From Candidatus Saccharimonadota bacterium (GTDB lineage Bacteria > Patescibacteriota > Saccharimonadia > Saccharimonadales > Saccharimonadaceae), in assembly GCA_017537745.1 (NCBI GenBank), contig JAFYKF010000010.1, positions 1-64,000 on the forward strand: a stretch of 64,000 bases of DNA, read 5' to 3'. Position 1 is the stretch's first letter, and every line of letters starts with the position of its first letter. The translations under genes and the position numbers were made by a program. This document shows positions 1,216 to 49,757 of the stretch, in pieces. The notes beneath the pieces were generated by a model. The model worked only from the letters and a program-made list of their open reading frames with translations, did no database searches and was not told the DNA's origin.

Positions 1216-2619
1216 ATGAGGAGTTTATATAGACGGTATCGTCCGGTAAAGTTAAGCGAGGTTGTTGGGCAAAAGCAGGTGACTGAGCCGCTTGCCAATT
1301 CTTTGAAAGAAGGGAAGATTAGTCATGCATATCTTTTTATTGGTCCGCGAGGTACCGGTAAGACAAGCGTGGCTAGAATTTTTGCGCACGAAGTAAACGG
1401 ATTTCCTTATACTATAGAAGATGATTATGTGGATATAATTGAAATTGATGGCGCTTCGAACCGTGGCATCGATAATATCCGCGAGCTTCGCGAGAAGGTT
1501 GCGATTGCACCTACGGCTGGTAAATATAAAATATATATTATCGACGAAGTCCATATGTTAACGAAAGAAGCATTTAATGCTTTACTTAAGACGCTCGAGG
1601 AACCCCCAGAACATGCTATATTTATTATGGCAACAACTGACGCCTACAAGGTTCCAGTCACAATTACTTCCCGTTCGCAAACCTACACCTTCCGTTTGGC
1701 TGAATCAGACGTAATCTTTCCATATATTAAATCTATCTGCGAAAAAGAGAAAATTCTAATTGATGACGATGCGCTAAAAATCGTAATAAAGCGTGGTGGT
1801 GGTTCATTCCGTGACACCTTATCATTGCTAGATCAAATTTCAACACTAAGTGACAAACAAATCTCCAAGGAAATGGTGGTTGACGCTTTGGGTTTGCCAG
1901 AGGATGAGCAAATTGCAAACTTACTAACTGCCTATCAAAATAGTGATGCTGGCGCAGTTGTCAATGAATTGCGAAATATATTATCATCTGGGATTAAACC
2001 AGAAACATTGGCTGAAGAATTAATCTCTACTATAATTGCAGAACCAACGCCAGAATTATTGCCCCTGCTTGCAAAGTTGCCCGATGTTAAGGCTCCTTTT
2101 GCCGAAGCGAGAATACTAGTTGCATTGATGAAAGAAGGGGTGGCTGAGCGTCTTTTTCCGGGACCGGCAAGCCCACTCTCGACGTCATACGCTGGGACGC
2201 GGGCAGAACCGCCCCTACAGGGCGAACCTGTCCGGTCCGGCAGGAATATACGTCTCGAGCGGTCTAACCGGAAATTGTCCTCGGAAAAAGACGCGTCAGC
2301 CACCCCCTCTTTCAATTGGAGCAGTTTCAGCGAGAAAGTTAAGGAGGCAAGTGGGGCGTTAGCGTTACAAATTGCATCGGCAAATTATGAAGTCGACGGT
2401 ACGACATTAAAAATATATCCAGAAAATGACTTCGCTAAGACATTTTTATCACGCGACAAGAACAAGAAAATTTTAATTGAATGTGCTGATGGTTTAAAAG
2501 TGACGGTTTGCGATGTAAAGGATAATCCAAAAATCAAAAACGATGAACTAATTTCAAAAATGTCTGATATAATGGGTGGTGAGGTAATGAACGATGGAGG
2601 AGGTAACCCATTCAACTAG
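1216..2619 (+). CDS. dnaX: DNA polymerase III subunit gamma/tau
   Basis: AAA+ clamp-loader ATPase that loads the sliding clamp at replication forks. The N-terminus RSLYRRYRP and GQ motif, Walker A GPRGTGKTS (about 43-51), Walker B IIDEVHML and sensor TTDAYKVP are all present. At 467 residues it is a short version. The Cys4 zinc module that normally sits between Walker A and EIDGASNRG is absent: residues 60-72 hold only a short acidic linker without cysteine. A GC-rich palindromic element (2130-2313) is inserted in frame at about residues 305-366. TATAAT at 1204-1209 lies 6 bases before the ATG, so the transcript is probably leaderless. The end overlaps dnaB. Confidence 0.95.
   Translation: MRSLYRRYRPVKLSEVVGQKQVTEPLANSLKEGKISHAYLFIGPRGTGKTSVARIFAHEVNGFPYTIEDDYVDIIEIDGASNRGIDNIRELREKVAIAPTAGKYKIYIIDEVHMLTKEAFNALLKTLEEPPEHAIFIMATTDAYKVPVTITSRSQTYTFRLAESDVIFPYIKSICEKEKILIDDDALKIVIKRGGGSFRDTLSLLDQISTLSDKQISKEMVVDALGLPEDEQIANLLTAYQNSDAGAVVNELRNILSSGIKPETLAEELISTIIAEPTPELLPLLAKLPDVKAPFAEARILVALMKEGVAERLFPGPASPLSTSYAGTRAEPPLQGEPVRSGRNIRLERSNRKLSSEKDASATPSFNWSSFSEKVKEASGALALQIASANYEVDGTTLKIYPENDFAKTFLSRDKNKKILIECADGLKVTVCDVKDNPKIKNDELISKMSDIMGGEVMNDGGGNPFN
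2130..2313. repeat. In-frame palindromic element inside dnaX
   Basis: Arms of about 31 bases (2130-2160 and 2282-2313) are inverted copies with few mismatches: GAAAGAAGGGGTGGCTGA then GCGTCTTTTTCCG, against its complement at the other end. The interior is clearly more GC-rich than dnaX and includes a CCGCCCCTACAGGGCGAAC stretch. It reads through without a stop and adds about 60 residues between the ATPase part and the C-terminal region of DnaX. Because of the symmetry the opposite strand is also open. Confidence 0.85.
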
Positions 2620-10652: not shown

Positions 10653-11583
10653 CGGGTCCTGCCAGTCACTCTCCTCCCCCACGTCACAAAGTTCCGTGGG
10701 GGACCCCCTCCGTGACTGTCACCCGTCATGTTTTATGATTGATACCCATTGTCATTTACATGATCGGGAATTTTTTACCGCCGAACAGGCGGAAGCCATG
10801 ATTGAACGCGCGCACAAAAACAATGTAAAACGTATTATTTGCATCGGCACGTCGCATGAAGATTCTCTCAAAGCAGCTGAATTTGCCAAAGAGCATAATA
10901 ATGTTTACTGGACCTACGGCATTCACCCAGAAGAGACGGCCTCAGTTATGCTATACTCGGGGCCGCGTCCGTCCGGCCCATCGCCATGGGCGGACGGCGC
11001 TATACCCTCGCTTCGCTCGCGCGTCCCAAGGGGCGAACGCGCTGCCGCGCTCCGGAATGCCCCGAATATAGCATCAACTGAGGCCCCCATAGCTATAGGT
11101 GAAGTGGGGTTGGATTACCATCATGATGGGTATGATAGAGAGGCGCAGATTAAGCTGTTTGAACAAATGTTGCAGTTGGCGGTTGATAATGATCTACCGG
11201 TTTCTTTTCATGTGCGCGAAGCGTTTGAAGATTTCTTCGGTGTGGTAGCGAATTTTCCAAAAGTACGTGGCGTAGTGCATAGTTTTTCGGATAGCAAGAA
11301 GAAATTAAAACGTATCCTTGAAACAACTGATTTCTACATCGGAGTAAACGGTTTAGCTACTTATTCAACCCTTCCTTTGCCTCCATTAGAGAGAATATTA
11401 CTTGAAACAGATGCTCCATTCTTGACTCCTACACCATTTCGTGGTATAATTAATGAACCAGCTTATGTTCCATGCATAGCCGACTGGCTAAGTAAAAAAA
11501 TGGACGTAAGCTTAGAGACAATAGAGAAGGAGACGACCCGAAATGCAGAAAAACTCTTCAACTTTTCAGATACCGTCCTTTAA
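10645..11583 (+). CDS. tatD: TatD-family metal-dependent deoxyribonuclease/hydrolase carrying two palindromic inserts
   Basis: TIM-barrel hydrolase with the metal ligands of the family: IDTHCHLHD, IGEVGLDY, SFHVREAF, VVHSFS and LLETDAPFLTP. The family-like start is ATG 10735 (MIDTHCHLHD). An in-frame ATG at 10645, with GGGAG 8 bases upstream, is the better ribosome site, and using it adds a 30-residue extension encoded by a palindrome. A second palindrome (10938-11085) inserts ~48 residues between GIHPEE and the IGEVGLDY strand. Neither insert hits a metal ligand. ATG 10645 overlaps the typA stop (ATGCCTGA), which suggests coupling. The end overlaps the next small gene. Confidence 0.92.
   Translation: MPDGSCQSLSSPTSQSSVGDPLRDCHPSCFMIDTHCHLHDREFFTAEQAEAMIERAHKNNVKRIICIGTSHEDSLKAAEFAKEHNNVYWTYGIHPEETASVMLYSGPRPSGPSPWADGAIPSLRSRVPRGERAAALRNAPNIASTEAPIAIGEVGLDYHHDGYDREAQIKLFEQMLQLAVDNDLPVSFHVREAFEDFFGVVANFPKVRGVVHSFSDSKKKLKRILETTDFYIGVNGLATYSTLPLPPLERILLETDAPFLTPTPFRGIINEPAYVPCIADWLSKKMDVSLETIEKETTRNAEKLFNFSDTVL
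10651..10727. repeat. Family-1 palindromic element at the 5' end of tatD
   Basis: Hairpin with outer arms GACGGGT/ACCCGTC, then AGTCAC/GTGACT and CCCCAC/GTGGGG around a short loop. It encodes [20 protein letters not shown] in the tatD frame. The copy in the cysteine desulfurase gene (17904-17982) is about 78% identical, and its AGCTCT/AGAGCT arm keeps the pairing although the sequence differs. Confidence 0.85.
10938..11085. repeat. Family-2 palindromic element inside tatD
   Basis: Outer arms GGCCTCAGTTATGCTATA and its near-complement ending at 11085 enclose a GC-rich core starting GGGGCCGCGTCCGTCC and ending GAATGCCCC. The core contains the hairpin CCGTCCGGCCCAT-CGCC-ATGGGCGGACGG. It is nearly identical to the cores in alaS and trmD, with an extra ~30 bases here. 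It encodes PRPSGPSPWADGAI in the tatD frame. Confidence 0.9.
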
Positions 11584-15846: not shown

Positions 15847-15907
15847 ATAACCTCCTTGTTATGGTATTATTATAGCACGCAAAAATAATATACAAGTGGG
15901 TTTTTAG

Positions 15908-17029
15908 CTATACGATGATGCCGCCACCAAGGCAAATTTCGTCATCATACAAAACAGCGGATTGGCCAGAGGCGGGACGCTTGATTTCGTTTTCGAAGAC
16001 TAGTTTCTCGCCGTCGAACTGGGCGGGGATTAAAGGGGCACGATGACGCAAACGAACTAATATGCTTGGTTTGCTCGCCTCCTCGCTCGCGCCCGTCGTT
16101 ACGGGGCTCGCTTCGTCGCTTGCTCCCGTTGTCGCAAATGCTCGCAAACCAAGCATATTAGTTCGCGTCACAACATCTTTTAGCTTCAATTCCTTGGTCC
16201 AGATGTGGGAGTCGTTGAGGTTTTTGGAGACGTAGACGATGTTGTTTTTTAGGTCTTTTTTGACGACGTAGTAGGGGAGGCCGTCGTTAATCTCGCCTTT
16301 GTTGCCAGAGATATATAATCCGTGACGTTGGCCAATGGTATAAAAAACTGCGCCTTCGTGTACGCCAAGGACTTTTTCGGTCTCGATTTCCCGGATTTCA
16401 CCAGGCTCTATTTCGATATATTCTTTGAGAAAATCTTTCATACCGACTTCGCCGACAAAACAGACGCCCATCGATTCTTTTTTGTAGGCGTTGTGGAGGC
16501 CTTTTTCCTCGGCGAGTTTTTTGACGTCGGGTTTTAGCATCTCGCCAATAGGGAACAATGTGTGTTTTAAGGCTTCGTCGGAAATGCGATAAAGGAAGTA
16601 GGTTTGGTCTTTATTCTCATCGACCGCTCTAGCAAGATTCCCGTCGATAATTCTTGCGTAGTGGCCGGTGGCAATAAAGTCGGCACCACGCTCCATGGCT
16701 TTTTCGAAGAAGAGTTTGAACTTGATTTCTTGATTGCACATGATGTCGGGGTTGGGCGTGTTGCCTTTTTTGAATTCCTCGAGCATGTATTCGACGACTT
16801 TTTCGCGATAAGCGTCTTCAAAATCCCAAACTTCAAAAGGGATGCCGAGTTTAACTGCGACGCGCTTGGCATCGGCAAGGTCTTCGGCCCATGGGCATTT
16901 CATGCCGGGTAGGTCACGAGACCAGTTTTTCATGTAGACGCCGGTTACGTCGTAGCCTTGTTCTTTTAACAATAACGCCGAGACAGACGAGTCTACACCG
17001 CCGCTCATACCAACAAAAACTTTAGACAT
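15908..17029 (-). CDS. mnmA: tRNA-specific 2-thiouridylase
   Basis: Puts the 2-thio group on U34 of Lys, Glu and Gln tRNAs. PP-loop GMSGGVDSSVSALLL, CNQEIKF and GHYAR, the second catalytic cysteine in GVCFVGE, and the C-terminal beta barrel are present. ATG 17029 gives MSKVFVGMSGGVDSS and overlaps the desulfurase stop (ATGTCTAA). That pairing is functional: the desulfurase supplies the sulfur. A palindromic element adds ~40 residues at about 288-329, just before the conserved ILVRLRHRAP strand. 373 residues including the insert. Confidence 0.95.
   Translation of the reverse strand: MSKVFVGMSGGVDSSVSALLLKEQGYDVTGVYMKNWSRDLPGMKCPWAEDLADAKRVAVKLGIPFEVWDFEDAYREKVVEYMLEEFKKGNTPNPDIMCNQEIKFKLFFEKAMERGADFIATGHYARIIDGNLARAVDENKDQTYFLYRISDEALKHTLFPIGEMLKPDVKKLAEEKGLHNAYKKESMGVCFVGEVGMKDFLKEYIEIEPGEIREIETEKVLGVHEGAVFYTIGQRHGLYISGNKGEINDGLPYYVVKKDLKNNIVYVSKNLNDSHIWTKELKLKDVVTRTNMLGLRAFATTGASDEASPVTTGASEEASKPSILVRLRHRAPLIPAQFDGEKLVFENEIKRPASGQSAVLYDDEICLGGGIIV
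16045..16169. repeat. Palindromic element inside mnmA
   Basis: Perfect 22-base inverted repeats at 16053-16074 and 16144-16165, with weaker pairing out to 16045 and 16169. The 69-base interior is GC-rich with TCGCTCGCGCCCGTCGTTACGG. On the coding strand it reads through as an Ala/Ser/Glu/Thr-rich stretch (TTGASDEASPVTTGASEEAS). One arm encodes ILVRLR, which belongs to the conserved MnmA barrel; the other encodes non-conserved residues. Confidence 0.9.
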
Positions 17030-24558: not shown

Positions 24559-26538
24559 ATGGATGCAAATGAAGTACGTCAAAAATTTTTAGATTTTCAA
24601 GTTAAAAAAGGGCATAAAGTTATTGCCCCGGCACCACTAGTGCTCGAGGGCGACCCGACCACATTATTTACTGGTTCAGGCATGCAACCTTTACTACCTT
24701 ATTTGTTGGGTGAGCCGCATAAAGAAGGCAAGCGGCTTTGCGATTCGCAGCCCTCAATGCGTTTGCAAGACATTGAAGACGTGGGCGACCCTAGGCACAC
24801 GACGGTATTTGAGATGCTTGGCAACTGGTCTTTGGGCGATTATTTCAAAAAAGAGCAGATCCAAAATTTCTTTGAGTTTTTGACTAAAGAAATTGGTCTA
24901 GATCCAAGCAAAATCTACGTAACATGCTTCATTGGTAATGAAAAATACGGGATCCCGAAAGATACCGAAGCGGCAAAAATTTGGCAAGAAGTGTTTAAGA
25001 AGGCCGGGATTGAAGCTAAGATTGCCGAAATTGGCACCGCGAAGGAAGGCGACAAGCGTGGAATCAAAGAAGGTGAGCGAATCTTCTTTTATGACGACCA
25101 CGAAAACTGGTGGAGCCGCGGCGGTGGCTGTGAGTCTACACCGATTGGCGATCCTTGTGGCCCAGACTCGGAAGTGTTCTATGACTTTGGCGAAGATAAG
25201 CAGGATGTTGAGAAATACGGTTTATCACATCCAGCGTCGGATGGCGCAAGATTTATGGAAATCGGTAACCAGGTCTTTATGCAATATCGACGCTTGCCAG
25301 ATGGTAGTTTCGAAGAATTGGAACACAAGAATGTTGACTTTGGCGGTGGTCTCGAGCGCATAACGGCGGCTTCGATTGGGTCGTTTGATGTATTTAAGAT
25401 TTCATTAATGAAACCAATTATTGATAAATTGGAAGAGATTTCAGGGAAGTCATACGATAATAATACTGATGAAATGCGGGTGATTGCCGATCATATTCGC
25501 GGTGCATATTTGCTTGCAGCACAAGGTTTGGTGCCATCCAATAAGACTCAGGGTTATGCGATGAGGCGATTGGTACGCCGAGCAATTCTGCGCGCACTCG
25601 ACCTTGGTATATCGACTAATTTCTTGTCCGAAATTGTACCGATTGTGGCTGAAAACTATGCGGGATTGCCGGATTCGATTTTGACACACCGTGAAGTTGC
25701 ACTAGAGACATTGCTCAAAGAAGAAGCTGCTTTCCGGAAGACTTTAAATAAAGGCTTAAAAGAGTTAAATAGGATGGCTCGCATATCCAACCCGGGGCCG
25801 CGTCCGTCCGGCCCATCGCCATGGGCGGACGGCGCTATACCTCGCGCTGCCGCGCTCCGGAATGCCCCGGGTTCGGATACACGAGCCACCCTGTCTGGCT
25901 ATGATTTGTTTAAGCTTCAGGATACTTATGGTTTTCCGTTGGAATTGTCCGTTGAGGAGTGTTATCATCAGGGGATTGAGCTGTCCAAGGATTATCAAGC
26001 GGAATTCGAGAAAGCTTTGAAAGAGCAGCGCGAGAGGTCGCAAACTGCGTCTAAAGGCATGTTTAAGGGTGGTCTTGAAGACCATGGTGAACAGACGGTC
26101 AAATATCACACTGCGACACATTTGTTGCTTGCAGCTTTGCAAAAACTGATTGATCCATCGATTTCACAGAAAGGCTCCAATACTACCGCCGAGCGAACGC
26201 GTTTTGACTTTAATCTTGATCACAAAATGACACCAGAAGAAATCAAAAAGGTGGAAGACCAAGTCAACGAATGGATTGCTGCAGATTTACCTGTGGTATT
26301 CGATGAATACGAAAAAGATTACGCACGAAATACGCTAAAGGCACACGGCCAGTTCTGGGATAAGTATCCAGACATTTTGAAAGTTTACACGATTGGCGAT
26401 TTTGAAGCACCGATTTCACGCGAGGTTTGTGGCGGTCCACACGTGGAGCATACTGGCGTGATTGGCCATTTTAAGATTGTCAAGGAAGAATCTTCGGCGG
26501 CTGGAATCCGCAGAATTAAAGCGATCTTGACGGATTAG
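24559..26538 (+). CDS. alaS: Alanyl-tRNA synthetase, reduced form
   Basis: Charges tRNA-Ala. The catalytic core (VRQKFLDFQVKKGHK, motif 2 DVGDPRHTTVFEMLGNWS, motif 3 GGGLER) and the editing site HTATHLL (about 517-521) and CGGPHVEHTG are present. At 659 residues it is ~200 shorter than usual. The C-terminal C-Ala/oligomerisation part is missing, and the beta-barrel with the FYAESGGQ-type motif that normally precedes the editing domain is also missing: KALKEQRERSQTASKG runs within ~25 residues into HTATH. A family-2 palindrome adds ~40 residues at 405-445. TATAAT at 24546-24551, 7 bases before ATG, gives a leaderless transcript. Confidence 0.94.
   Translation: MDANEVRQKFLDFQVKKGHKVIAPAPLVLEGDPTTLFTGSGMQPLLPYLLGEPHKEGKRLCDSQPSMRLQDIEDVGDPRHTTVFEMLGNWSLGDYFKKEQIQNFFEFLTKEIGLDPSKIYVTCFIGNEKYGIPKDTEAAKIWQEVFKKAGIEAKIAEIGTAKEGDKRGIKEGERIFFYDDHENWWSRGGGCESTPIGDPCGPDSEVFYDFGEDKQDVEKYGLSHPASDGARFMEIGNQVFMQYRRLPDGSFEELEHKNVDFGGGLERITAASIGSFDVFKISLMKPIIDKLEEISGKSYDNNTDEMRVIADHIRGAYLLAAQGLVPSNKTQGYAMRRLVRRAILRALDLGISTNFLSEIVPIVAENYAGLPDSILTHREVALETLLKEEAAFRKTLNKGLKELNRMARISNPGPRPSGPSPWADGAIPRAAALRNAPGSDTRATLSGYDLFKLQDTYGFPLELSVEECYHQGIELSKDYQAEFEKALKEQRERSQTASKGMFKGGLEDHGEQTVKYHTATHLLLAALQKLIDPSISQKGSNTTAERTRFDFNLDHKMTPEEIKKVEDQVNEWIAADLPVVFDEYEKDYARNTLKAHGQFWDKYPDILKVYTIGDFEAPISREVCGGPHVEHTGVIGHFKIVKEESSAAGIRRIKAILTD
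25771..25892. repeat. Family-2 palindromic element inside alaS
   Basis: Arms AGGATGGCTCGCATATCC and its near-complement at 25875-25892 enclose the same GC-rich core as in tatD and trmD. Encodes PRPSGPSPWADGAIPRAAAL in the alaS frame, located in the linker before LSGYDLFKLQDTYGFP. Confidence 0.9.
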
Positions 26539-27815: not shown

Positions 27816-28498
27816 GGTTCTATTATATCATATTTACCAGAAGCAAGAGATCCGAGCTCATACTTACCAAATTGGGTACGGTGGAGTTTTGTGACGCGAT
27901 AGCCCAAAGCAGCAAAAGTTCGGCGTATTTGCCGATTACGGCCCTCACTTAGAATCACTATATAGGAAAGATGAGAACCATTCTTAATAATAGTAAACTT
28001 TGAAGGGCCGTCATCGAGCATTACGCCGAAGTCGGAGATCATTTGTTGGTGGAGTGGCTCGAGCGTCTTGTTTAATTCCACTTCATAAACTTTTTGCTTA
28101 CGGAATTTTGGATGAGTCATCTGAAAGGAGAAATCACCATCATTGGTTAGCAATATCAGTCCAGAAGAATCTTTGTCAAGGCGTCCAACTGTTTTTAAAT
28201 TATGGTATTTTTTAGGTAACAGATTATAGAGCGTGGGCGCGGACCCTTGAGCACGGCGCGAACAAACATAACCAACTGGTTTATTAAATGCAAGATATAA
28301 AAAATCCGTCTTAAACGGTACTACTTTATTATTATAGCATACTTTGTCTGAAATGTCAATGTGGGCACCCAGTACGGCTGGTTCATCATTCACTAGAATT
28401 TTGCCGTCCGAAATTAGCTCGTCTGCCTCGCGACGAGAGACACCAATCCGTTCAGCAAGAAATTTATTGAGCCGGAGTTGGGGCTGGAGCTGCTGCAA
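27812..28498 (-). CDS. RsuA/RluB-family 23S/16S rRNA pseudouridine synthase
   Basis: An S4 RNA-binding domain (RLNKFLAERIGVSRREADEL) is followed by the synthase domain with VGRLDKDSSGLILLTNDG (catalytic Asp) and SEGRNRQIRR. No ATG precedes the S4 domain in frame until 28846. I choose an in-frame TTG at 28498. That start lies 35 bases inside the end of the response-regulator gene. The alternative ATG at 28846 would add ~116 Gln/Leu/Pro-rich residues read out of frame across the regulator's repetitive tail. Three neighbours in a row overlap: histidine kinase, regulator, synthase, then the FtsA-like gene. Confidence 0.82.
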   Translation of the reverse strand: MQQLQPQLRLNKFLAERIGVSRREADELISDGKILVNDEPAVLGAHIDISDKVCYNNKVVPFKTDFLYLAFNKPVGYVCSRRAQGSAPTLYNLLPKKYHNLKTVGRLDKDSSGLILLTNDGDFSFQMTHPKFRKQKVYEVELNKTLEPLHQQMISDFGVMLDDGPSKFTIIKNGSHLSYIVILSEGRNRQIRRTFAALGYRVTKLHRTQFGKYELGSLASGKYDIIEP

Positions 28499-40245: not shown

Positions 40246-40993
40246 AATTATTCTTGACCTTGCCAGAGTGATCGGCGCGCCATTTGGCGATTTCGCCGTG
40301 GTTGCCCGACAACAGGATATCTGGAACCTTCATACCTCTAAAATCGGCTGGTTTGGTATATTGAGGATATTCAAGGTTGTCGCCGTCGGAAAAACTTTCG
40401 ATTTCGGCAGATTGTTCACCACCGAGGACGCCAGGGATAAGGCGGACTACACTATCGATGATGATTAGCGCCGGAAGTTCGCCGCCGGTGAGAACGTATT
40501 TGCCTAAGGAAATCTTATAATCCACCAGAGATAGTATCCGCTCATCGTAGCCTTCGTAATGTGGGCACAAGATGATGTAATGGATGTTTGCATCAGGCTT
40601 GGGGCCGCGTCCGTCCGGCCCATCGCCATGGGCGGCCGGCGCTAATTCTCGCGCTGCCGCGCTCCGCAATGCCCCAAGCCCTGACGCAAACATCCGAGCT
40701 TTCTCTTGGGTCCAGATTTCGCCGACAGGGGTGGGGAGGATGACTTTGGCGGATGGATCTTTCTCTTTGACAGATTCGATGGCGGCAAAAACTGGCTCAC
40801 AACGGAGCAACATGCCGTCGCCACCGCCATACGGGGTGTCATCAACAGATTTGTGGGGACCAAGGCCAAAATCGCGCAAATTCACAAAATCAAACTCAGC
40901 AAGGCCTTTATCTACGGCTTTCCACATCATGGAGGTCTTGAGATATGGCTCAATCGCTTCTTGGAATAAAGTTATTATTGTAAATTTGATCAT
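40244..40993 (-). CDS. trmD: tRNA (guanine-37-N1)-methyltransferase
   Basis: Methylates G37 next to the anticodon to prevent frameshifts. Trefoil-knot features: FTIITLFQEAI start, YGGGDGMLLRCEPV, ILPTPVGEIWTQEKA, LCPHYEGYDERIL and SLGKYVLTGGELPAL. A family-2 palindrome adds ~38 residues (about 100-137) between FASG and IHYIILC, in the opposite orientation to the copies in tatD and alaS. It remains open in frame. The gene is convergent with the structured RNA on the plus strand and flanked by a second RNA gene. Confidence 0.94.
   Translation of the reverse strand: MIKFTIITLFQEAIEPYLKTSMMWKAVDKGLAEFDFVNLRDFGLGPHKSVDDTPYGGGDGMLLRCEPVFAAIESVKEKDPSAKVILPTPVGEIWTQEKARMFASGLGALRSAAARELAPAAHGDGPDGRGPKPDANIHYIILCPHYEGYDERILSLVDYKISLGKYVLTGGELPALIIIDSVVRLIPGVLGGEQSAEIESFSDGDNLEYPQYTKPADFRGMKVPDILLSGNHGEIAKWRADHSGKVKNN
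40582..40695. repeat. Family-2 palindromic element inside trmD (reverse orientation)
   Basis: Arms GGATGTTTGCATCAGGCTT and its near-complement ending at 40695 enclose the shared core, with only a few differences from the alaS core (GGCCGG for GGACGG, CTAATTC for CTATACC). The gene is on the minus strand, so the element encodes the other peptide, ALRSAAARELAPAAHGDGPD. Confidence 0.9.
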
Positions 40994-41483: not shown

Positions 41484-42221
41484 ATGACAGTTTCAGAAAA
41501 GAAGTATGGATTCACTGAAGAGACCAAGGAATGGAAAGGACACATTCTCCATCAGATTGTCGCAATCAAGAGTTTTGGCAATATCAAGGCCGGCACGGTG
41601 GGCGGCTGGATTGAGAGGGAGCAGAATCTCTCCCAGGAAGGTAACTGCTGGGTGGGCGACAATGCCAAGGTCTGGGGCAACGCCAGCGTGCGCGATGATG
41701 CGATTGTTGCTGATTTTGCGAAAGTCTATGACTATGCAGAAATAAGCGACAAGGCACTGGTATACGCGGACGCGAAGGTATACGGTCAGGCCAAGGTCTA
41801 CGATACTGCTTTGGTTCACGGCCAGTCAGCCATTTATGACTTGGCTGAGGTGCGTGGTAAGGCAGAGGTCTACGGAGACTTGGTTAAGGTCTTTGGCAAT
41901 GCCAAAATCTACGGCCATGCCAAGGTCTACCACTATTCCAAGGTTTACGGAATGGCTCAGGTCTATGGTGAGGCCGAAGTCTTTAACAGAGCAGCCGTCT
42001 ATGGTTGGGCCAGAGTTTACGAGTTGGCAAAAATCTACGGCGACGCCAAAATCTACGGCCGGGCTGAAATCTACGGCGAAGCACGAGTCTTTGAGAATGC
42101 GATGGTTTTCGATGACGCATTCGTGTTCGACACGGCAAAGGTCCACAAATATGCTCGCGTGTTCTACGACGCCAGAGTTTTCCACGATGAGGATGTCGCA
42201 AAAACAATCTTTGGACGATGA
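41484..42221 (+). CDS. Left-handed beta-helix (hexapeptide repeat) protein 1
   Basis: 245 residues. A head of ~55 residues (ETKEWKGHILHQIVAI, GTVGGWIEREQNLSQEGNCWV) precedes ~25 imperfect hexapeptides of the A-x-V-Y/F-G/D type (AKVYGQAKVYDTALVHG), the signature of a left-handed parallel beta helix. Similar proteins with this head occur in phages and gut bacteria; function unproven. ATG 41484 follows AGGGGGAAC. First of three tandem paralogues. Leader ~85 bases from TATAAT near 41397. Confidence 0.8.
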   Translation: MTVSEKKYGFTEETKEWKGHILHQIVAIKSFGNIKAGTVGGWIEREQNLSQEGNCWVGDNAKVWGNASVRDDAIVADFAKVYDYAEISDKALVYADAKVYGQAKVYDTALVHGQSAIYDLAEVRGKAEVYGDLVKVFGNAKIYGHAKVYHYSKVYGMAQVYGEAEVFNRAAVYGWARVYELAKIYGDAKIYGRAEIYGEARVFENAMVFDDAFVFDTAKVHKYARVFYDARVFHDEDVAKTIFGR

Positions 42222-42242
42222 GAAATTAAGGAGGGAGAGCGA

Positions 42243-43109
42243 ATGTCCGAAAACGTTGAAAAGAAGTACGAGTTGCTCGAAGAAACTATGGAGTGGGGAG
42301 GCCACATTCTTCATCGCATTCGCGCAACAAGGGATTTTGGCCGCGTCCACAAAGGTCAGGTTGGCGGGTGGATTGAGAAAGAATCGAACCTGTCGCACGA
42401 GGGCGACTGCTGGGTCTATGGTGAAGCAAAGGTATACAGCCACGCTGTTGTGGAGGGAAATGCCTTGGTTTTTAATGAGGCCTTGGTGTATAACTCTGCC
42501 AAAGTGTCGGAGAGTGCCACCGTGCATGAACGGGCCGAGGTTTACGGTCTCGCTGTCGTGAGAGGAAACAGCTGGGTGCTCGGCTGTGCCAAGATTTATG
42601 GCGGCGCTGAGGTATACGGCGATGCCGTTGTGCTTGGCTACGCACAAGTTTTCAACAAGGCCTCGGTGTACGGAATTGCTCAGATATATGGGAAAGCCCA
42701 GATATTTGACTATGCTCGCGTCTACGAGAATGCCATGGTTTACGACGGCGGCAAGGTTTTTGACCGTGCCGAAGTTTTTGGATCCGCTCGCGTGTTTGAT
42801 GAGGCCTATGTCTACGGTAATGCCAAGGTGTTTGGTGGAGCCGAAATCTATGGCAAATCCTCGGTTTCCGACAATTCCATGGTCTTTGACGCCGCGGAAA
42901 TCTGCGGCGACTCGCGAATCCTCTACGACTCGAGAGTGTATTTCAACGAGAAAATCAAGGACCGAGTTGTTGCGATGCGGTGGCCGAGAGACGCTGAATG
43001 CGCAAGCAAGGTCGTCGAAACTATCGGCCAGGTTGTATTGCAAAGGTTCGACACAGACAGTATGACTTTTGTGAAAGAGGAGGGCAATAATGGCGAAAAC
43101 GAATCATAA
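42243..43109 (+). CDS. Left-handed beta-helix (hexapeptide repeat) protein 2
   Basis: 288 residues, same architecture: head with TMEWGGHILHRIRATRDFG, VGGWIEKESNLSHEGDCWV, then ~30 hexapeptides (KVYGGAEVYGDAVVLGYAQV style) and a non-repeat tail of ~40 residues unlike paralogue 1. GGAGGGAG precedes the ATG, 21 bases after the first gene. Overlaps paralogue 3 by 20 bases, so the three are one transcription unit. Confidence 0.8.
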   Translation: MSENVEKKYELLEETMEWGGHILHRIRATRDFGRVHKGQVGGWIEKESNLSHEGDCWVYGEAKVYSHAVVEGNALVFNEALVYNSAKVSESATVHERAEVYGLAVVRGNSWVLGCAKIYGGAEVYGDAVVLGYAQVFNKASVYGIAQIYGKAQIFDYARVYENAMVYDGGKVFDRAEVFGSARVFDEAYVYGNAKVFGGAEIYGKSSVSDNSMVFDAAEICGDSRILYDSRVYFNEKIKDRVVAMRWPRDAECASKVVETIGQVVLQRFDTDSMTFVKEEGNNGENES

Positions 43110-43755
43110 GTTTATTGAAAACTTGGCGCCGGGCCAGAAGAAGTTCGAGCTGACCGCGGAAACGAAGGAAGTGGATGGGCATATTCTTCACCGAATTCGT
43201 GCCGTGGTCGACATCAAAAGCCTTTATTACCCCATCCGCATCAAGAAAGGTACGCTTGGCGGGTGGGTCGAAAAAGAGTCAAATCTGTCACAATCTGGAG
43301 CTTGCTGGGTTTTTCACGAAGGCATGGTCTTTGGCGAAGCTATAGTGTCTATGGCGGGCTCGGTAGGCGGAAAAGCGAGAGTCTATGGCGATGCTCGAGT
43401 ATACGACAAAGCCATGATTATGGATCAGAGCGAGATTTATGGCGGAGCAACCATATGCGGTAACTCAATCATATTGGGAGAGGTAAAAGTCTACGAATAC
43501 GCCTCGGTGGTTAGCGCAATTATTAGTGGCCATGCCAAGATCTATGGCAATGCGCGTGTCACCGGTGATGCCGAAGTTGGAGATAACGCATGCGTCTATG
43601 AGGATGCAGTAATCGGGGGGCGTGTCCGCATCAGTGATAAGGCAAGGATTCGTGGTTATACCCACATAGAGTGTTATGACTCTCCTGACAACTGCACTAT
43701 ATGGATTGCTGGCGACACCGAGATTGAAGGCAGTGCCAGGATTACCGCTCAGTAA
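43090..43755 (+). CDS. Left-handed beta-helix (hexapeptide repeat) protein 3
   Basis: 221 residues with the same head (KEVDGHILHRIRAVVDIK, LGGWVEKESNLSQSGACWV) and a shorter, more diverged helix. The repeat pattern is interrupted near the end (ECYDSPDNCTIW) before a last turn (GDTEIEGSARITAQ). GAGGAGG lies upstream inside the previous gene. Closes the operon. Loss of the aromatic Y/F positions compared with copies 1 and 2 suggests a different surface. Confidence 0.78.
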   Translation: MAKTNHKFIENLAPGQKKFELTAETKEVDGHILHRIRAVVDIKSLYYPIRIKKGTLGGWVEKESNLSQSGACWVFHEGMVFGEAIVSMAGSVGGKARVYGDARVYDKAMIMDQSEIYGGATICGNSIILGEVKVYEYASVVSAIISGHAKIYGNARVTGDAEVGDNACVYEDAVIGGRVRISDKARIRGYTHIECYDSPDNCTIWIAGDTEIEGSARITAQ

Positions 43756-48835: not shown

Positions 48836-48976
48836 CACGTCTTTCTTAATTCACTACATCTCGGGACATAAAGGCAAAATCGAAGATTTTGCCGCCGAAG
48901 GGGCGCAGCGATGTGATAAAATTTATTATCACATCGCGAAGCTCCCGAGATGTAGTGAATTAAGAAAAAAACGTGT
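48835..48976. repeat. Palindromic element after rsmD
   Basis: Outer arms (48835-48865 and 48943-48976) share TTCTTAATTCACTACATCTCGGGA and its complement. Two further perfect hairpins lie inside: GGCAAAATC/GATTTTGCC (48873-48893) and GCGATGTGATAA/TTATCACATCGC (48908-48937). The whole folds as a three-stem cruciform. It has no coding role and differs from the in-gene families. Confidence 0.88.
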
Positions 48977-49576: not shown

Positions 49577-49640
49577 AAATAGAAGTTTTGTTCGCTTGGA
49601 CTTTTGAATTCGTAATTTTTACAATTTAAGTCTAGAAAAA

Positions 49641-49678
49641 AAGTCCTCAGTCGCCCTTCGGGTTATGGGACATTTTTT
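49641..49678 (+). terminator. Intrinsic terminator
   Basis: GTCC...CCC-TTCG-GGG...GGAC hairpin followed by ATTTTTT, downstream of the surface protein gene. Confidence 0.75.
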
Positions 49679-49757
49679 CGTAGTTAAATTGATAAAAATT
49701 ACATTTAAAAATCTGTTCTATTCTATTTTTACCCTGAATATGCTATAATATTTTTAT

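Follow-up and report, generated by a model that had tools for sequence, protein, structure and literature searches.

Small hairpin elements in ruminant-gut Saccharibacteria whose outer arms mirror host gene sequence

Described hairpin elements and the mnmA locus

The Rickettsia palindromic elements (RPE), reportedly studied by Ogata et al. in 2000 and 2002, carry palindromes that are part of the repeat and are common to its copies. Elements of the IS200/IS605 and REP/RAYT types rely on a hairpin that is recognised in one DNA strand and show an orientation bias relative to replication; we know of no member that copies its target sequence in inverted form, and the transposition reactions known to us generate direct target duplications or none. 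Replication itself can create or repair inverted copies of nearby sequence and homogenise their arms through template switching and quasi-palindrome correction (PMC8794818, PMC8604942, PMC7202029). In mitochondria, repetitive hairpin and double-hairpin elements are small, are thought to be mobile and, in the excerpted account of Allomyces, lack flanking direct duplications (PMC2800124), while the coding genes of Nematomorpha mitochondria contain inverted repeats whose arms evolve in concert, as far as the excerpted source describes them (PMC6649704).

The window, by which we mean the whole 64-kb stretch of DNA that was analysed, belongs to a Saccharibacteria genome (G000; 838 kb in 11 contigs, 98% complete) whose genus occurs mostly in ruminant guts. 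Its mnmA gene contains an in-frame element, and the 373-aa reading frame remains open across it. The features are as follows.

15907..17029, - strand: mnmA (tRNA 2-thiouridylase), with the in-frame element in a variable loop before LVRLRHRAP
16044-16052, + strand: outer continuation of the left arm, TGACG plus a CAAA bulge
16053..16074, + strand: window-left arm (right in the gene), host-derived, encoding SILVRLR of the conserved C-terminal barrel
16075..16143, + strand: family-2 core, 69 nt, also found in gatA and a recX-like gene
16144..16170, + strand: window-right arm (left in the gene), the inverted copy, encoding TRTNMLGL, which is non-conserved

The hairpin at 16053-16165 consists of 22-nt arms (16053-16074 and 16144-16165) with 69 nt between them, and its stem extends outward to 16044-16170 past a 4-nt bulge (16049-16052). 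Only one other inverted repeat in the window has exact arms of at least 16 nt and a spacing of 30-220 nt. The LVRLRHRAP motif is conserved in relatives that lack the element (L034 and L038-L043, for example). A preliminary description of this DNA had stated that one arm encodes the conserved ILVRLR and that the other encodes non-conserved residues, and this is indeed the case. Its view of the arms as near-perfect inverses holds in full at mnmA, where the 22 nt are 100% complementary; elsewhere the arms are near-perfect and not always perfect. The family-2 core recurs in gatA (C11:49666-49731; 95% identical to the mnmA copy over 66 nt) and more weakly in a recX-like gene of the same genome (C6:63332-63390; 80% over 57 nt), and the arms differ in both. 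The mnmA genes of two relatives contain apparent remnants: L045 retains GGGCCGCGTC of a core of another family, family 1, and L046 has an 11-bp arm pair without a GC-rich core.

The family-1 core is about 75 nt long and occurs at nine places in the genome, namely tatD, alaS, trmD, uvrC, queA, der, tgt, an rlmD-like gene and one position outside a long ORF. The three copies in the window obey the same arm rule as the mnmA element, and an element of a further core family lies near the start of the window.

10938..11085, + strand: family-1 element in the TatD-family DNase gene (tatD); core 10959-11063, a 105-nt form with an extra insert; arms of about 21 nt
25771..25892, + strand: family-1 element in alaS; core 25794-25868; arms of about 23 nt; net gain of 96 nt over the empty relative G099
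40582..40695, + strand: family-1 element in trmD (gene on the - strand, 40247-40993); core 40601-40675; arms of 19-20 nt; net gain of 93 nt over empty G099
2129..2314, + strand: element of another core family (ACGTCATACGCTGG...CAGGAATATACGT), inside an ORF, with site-specific arms of about 36 nt

Other repeats accompany these elements. Further copies of the ACGTCATACGCTGG...CAGGAATATACGT family are present in related loci. A perfect 25-nt inverted repeat at 48842-48967, in or near a short ORF, encloses a 76-nt spacer that is unlike the other cores and has the inner hairpin GCGATGTGATAA; imperfect inverted repeats lie at 49602-49710 and 27919-28030, one of the two being AT-rich; and an 18-nt period repeat (GCCAAGGTCTACGG...) at 41648-43336 probably encodes a repeat protein. 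Family-1 cores of 105-150 nt (window 10959-11063, L014, L047 and L058) have extra sequence nested within them, as if the hairpins accepted further insertions. A smaller hairpin family in L066, L121, L165 and L239 shares strings such as CAAGCCGCTCTGGCCAAGTC and has site-specific arms of its own; its compared copies gave no Rfam match. An Rfam scan of the window returned only a tRNA, and 13 element-bearing loci gave no match above the gathering score.

Site-specific arms and empty sites

Two sets of family-1 copies were assembled. The first came from a core-only search of related ruminant-gut Saccharibacteria loci that was blind to the arms and was skewed toward the neighbourhoods of the searched genes; the second, chosen by core similarity alone at 40 sites, is free of that skew. 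Arms flank 59 of the 66 cores in the first set (about 89%) and 49 of the 62 further cores in the second (about 79%), some of these outside long ORFs; not every copy is phylogenetically independent of the others. The outer ends of the arms are typically 19-22 nt away from the core, and the arms are complementary over about 20-22 nt. Exact-arm repeats numbered 21 in 1.46 Mb of related loci and none in shuffled sequence, while gapped inverted repeats numbered 120 in 1.71 Mb, against seven mirror-repeat controls. Among 295 sampled genomes of the family, this genus is the main carrier of family 1; weaker matches came from three other genera.

For family 2 it had been proposed that the cores are shared and that the arms differ at each site yet remain complementary there, and the pairing scores of both family-1 sets show that this behaviour of the arms is general. 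An arm in the first set pairs with its own partner with a mean score of 12.5, compared with 2.1 for the same gene in other species and 1.2 for other genes; the second set gave 11.3, compared with 2.2 (same site, other species) and 0.9 (other sites). Four other core families, which were chosen via their inverted repeats, scored 12.2-14.0 with their own partners and 0.6-0.9 otherwise. Conservation between sites is confined to the three or so innermost arm bases (YTC).

These scores bear on the idea that the arms are ordinary terminal inverted repeats which the element carries and which have since diverged, and the common YTC speaks in favour of it. We consider this highly improbable. Arms common to unrelated sites were sought and not found, even where cores at different sites are at least 97% identical: their arms cross-pair with a score of 2.2 and have an identity of 0.36-0.37, against a background of 0.31-0.33. 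Moreover, one arm encodes conserved host residues that are found in empty relatives, and the net gain in length, given below, is too small for two carried arms. Terminal inverted repeats shared among copies were likewise rejected.

Many relatives are empty at trmD, alaS and two mnmA loops and have native lengths there. In four loops the best inverted-repeat score of 164 empty sites was 4.7-6.3, similar to that of control windows, whereas filled arms scored 14.5. An element that targets pre-existing palindromes is thus a most unlikely source of the arms, although one empty relative, L034, does have an imperfect 10-bp inverted repeat at its mnmA site. The comparison of empty and filled sites had been suggested as a means of finding one native and one new arm, and this is what we observed. 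The clearest pair is in alaS, where the filled L280 and the empty L208 share 81% identity upstream: native KQSKD codons make up the left arm of L280, and its right arm, which is complementary to these codons as they stand in L280, is new. In trmD, AR-x-FA codons that empty relatives also conserve form part of the left arm, and the right arm repeats them in inverted form before the native HYIIL; in gatA a mirror image of the conserved RIG codons lies at the other side of the core. In another alaS pair, L084 and L285, of which one is filled and one empty, the sequences are 91% identical upstream and near-identical downstream, with a stretch of about 60 nt at the insertion in which they differ; recombination over a short tract may have transferred or removed an allele there.

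Direct repeats across the core scored 5.26, compared with 5.14 in controls, a measure that duplications of 2-4 nt would escape, while inverted repeats scored 10.1, compared with 5.2. The proposal of an inverted instead of a direct target duplication therefore agrees with the data. We regard target mirroring as well supported, since the empty sites lack a palindrome, one arm is native and the other new, and there is no direct duplication. The attribution of the inverted duplication to the element stands as far as the native and new arms and the missing direct repeat are concerned; that it is made within the insertion event is no more than probable, because the nearest filled and empty pairs, at about 81-91% identity, do not cleanly separate creation at insertion from quick later rewriting. 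The genomes compared are species representatives and mostly metagenome-assembled, with 81-91% sequence identity in the nearest comparisons; the closest relative of G000 among the 174 genomes of the genus is at about 83%.

Nine genes of G000 were compared with their empty counterparts in G099, and the net gains are 78, 84, 84, 90, 93, 93, 96, 96 and 126 nt. In 9/9 this is the core plus 9-21 nt, the core boundary being uncertain by a few bases, and it is less than the core plus two arms; mnmA gained 78 nt, only about 9-12 nt beyond its core.

Recurrent insertion, strand preference and arm imperfections

Cores in the same gene of different genomes are 0.829 similar and those in unrelated genes 0.831, whereas cores within a genome are 0.876 similar (p = 2e-4). 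Because same-gene cores are no closer than unrelated ones and are closer within a genome, we interpret the distribution as the result of recurrent independent insertions; slow co-evolution of orthologous insertions at shared sites is disfavoured on the same grounds. Hot-spot insertions lie at slightly different codons, and family-1 cores are found in both orientations at the hot spots (seven and six in trmD, 12 and seven in mnmA, five and four in tatD). As most hot-spot copies are separate insertions, the site-specific arms must be formed during each of these events or shortly afterwards.

The orientation of the element is biased to one replication strand. Of 36 gene families that could be decided, 28 have the element plus strand on the G-rich strand (28 vs 8), independently of the strand of the gene, and 13 of 15 copies in opposite-strand genes follow the replication strand and not the gene, as judged from skew in 12-21-kb stretches and the window rather than from mapped origins.

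The imperfections of the arms are strand-specific. Most copies have one bulge and 1-3 mismatches per 21 nt or so of arm. On the element plus strand A·C mismatches outnumber G·T by 55 to 10 in genes of either orientation, and pyrimidine-pyrimidine mismatches outnumber purine-purine ones by about 8:1; read on the minus strand, they become G·T and purine pairs. Coding copies repeatedly show a one-base bulge at about 5 nt from the core; in 68 of 99 it lies within positions 2-7. Divergence of the core is no predictor of arm mismatches. Even the cores nearest the consensus have arms with 1-3 mismatches, no more perfect than the others, in a sample that contains no truly recent event.

Selection on hairpins that fold in the transcript would explain why the copies lie in coding sequence, with the frame kept in 65 of the 66 copies of the first set, in long ORFs, and in 53 of the 62 of the second. 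This explanation appears very improbable to us: A·C mismatches are as frequent as G·U ones when read in the mRNA sense (61 vs 58 in family 1; 113 vs 99 overall), the cores are present in both orientations, and copies outside long ORFs are armed as well. It seems to be a folded single strand of the element, and not the mRNA, that matters, either during insertion or in place.

That strand could be the target of selection in its own right. The stem would then be kept by selection on the folded minus strand of the element, as single-stranded DNA or as an RNA distinct from the host mRNA; a structure-reading recombinase, for instance, might use this strand as its substrate, and the arms would adapt to the host. 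The plus-strand mismatch classes, which become G·T and purine-purine on the minus strand, suit this reading, as do the fixed position of the bulge, the compensatory G-C to C-G swaps in the core stems and the greater stability of the minus-strand fold, which is the stabler one in 84 cases vs 24 for the arms-only hairpin and in 109 of 111 for the whole element. Such selection keeps complementarity, but it is not a ready source of some 20 nt of new complementarity, copied from host codons, at dozens of independent sites; moreover, searches for a Y1 transposase and a reverse transcriptase yielded no enzyme for it and Rfam no related family. We hold it to be a doubtful origin of the arms, though it could also act on top of the explanation that we favour.

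The core might alternatively insert alone, with later template switching between the flanks during replication continually rewriting one as the complement of the other, that is, quasi-palindrome correction with concerted evolution of the arms. Hairpins are known to arise and to be maintained through template switching, which also homogenises their arms and inverts their spacers (PMC8794818, PMC8604942), each hot spot contains both core orientations, and many mnmA copies gain 78-84 nt with a core of 73-76 nt, as if a native loop had been overwritten. On the other hand, all nine genes have gained 9-21 nt more than the core, mismatches and bulges persist, recur at fixed positions and are no more frequent with divergent cores, and strand-specific mismatch classes are unexpected if the arms are continually corrected. 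We consider this course of events unlikely, if rather less so than the carried repeats, targeted palindromes and transcript hairpins discussed above.

Mirroring of the target and comparison with known systems

Our preferred explanation, which we hold to be probable, is that these are small non-autonomous mobile hairpins and that about 20 nt of the target are mirrored by fold-back or template-switch synthesis at insertion. The elements would consist of a core of about 66-105 nt with two inner hairpins, in several core families, and, within one genus of ruminant-gut Saccharibacteria, would repeatedly enter loops of housekeeping genes in frame. The outer stem would not be carried by the element; instead, some 20 nt of one flank would be rewritten in inverted form across the core at each new site, to give host arm, core and inverted copy of the host arm without a direct target duplication. 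At a replication fork, synthesis of DNA on a single strand by fold-back or template switching may produce the inverted copy, and the closing stem of the core (GGGG/CCCC) may serve as a snap-back primer.

Synthesis of this kind at replication forks is our best guess, for which the replication-strand orientation bias and the template-switch behaviour known elsewhere provide hints. The earlier suggestion of a fold-back or template-switch origin fits the outcome; it does not account for the arm imperfections, as neither strand-specific mismatches nor a recurrent bulge is predicted by plain copying. A fixed fold-back polarity, in which the new arm is always on the same side of the core, was rejected: in trmD the host arm is the left one in both core orientations, so that either flank of the core can be the one that is copied, which argues against one fixed fold-back strand. 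We searched for a Y1 transposase and a reverse transcriptase and obtained no candidate mobilising enzyme. The former is present in two of 60 genomes and the latter in 39 of 60, and neither was found in G000, so both were set aside as local mobilisers. We tentatively suggest that the intermediate is a folded single strand which inserts at the fork and uses the target as the template for its own outer stem, with the inverted target duplication as the result. If this is true, each copy rebuilds the structured ends that its next move requires out of the host sequence that it happens to enter.

The RPE resemble these elements in being small, palindromic and mobile and in their presence in frame in housekeeping genes without destruction of the protein, as far as the excerpted source goes (PMC6649704). 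They differ, as RPE are generally known, in that here the outer stem is site-specific and mirrors the host gene; the phylum is another one and the Saccharibacteria cores have no Rfam relation. The literature that we searched contained no account of such elements in Saccharibacteria. Template-switch mutations share with our elements an arm that is an inverted copy of native sequence and is absent from the empty allele, yet those events have no mobile core, whereas here a shared core is present each time and arms of about 20-22 nt are formed repeatedly. The mitochondrial hairpin elements insert mostly between genes, and host-derived arms are not mentioned in the excerpted account (PMC2800124). 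The Nematomorpha palindromes are perfect repeats, in contrast to the regularly imperfect ones here, and the excerpts of their description include no shared mobile core (PMC6649704).

From IS200/IS605 and REP/RAYT the elements differ in the lack of a Y1 transposase in G000 and in 58 of the 60 genomes searched, and from classical DNA transposons and MITEs in that no direct target-site duplication and no shared terminal inverted repeats are seen. It is possible that the insertion chemistry of these small palindromic elements is itself new. With more than 100 copies in one genus, empty and filled alleles and a strand bias, they offer a testable system for the building of hairpins by template switching, and one that also bears on the tolerance of essential enzymes to inserts of 25-40 residues in minimal genomes. 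An element that mirrors its target would represent a different outcome of transposition, and it would naturally record fold-back DNA synthesis at replication forks.
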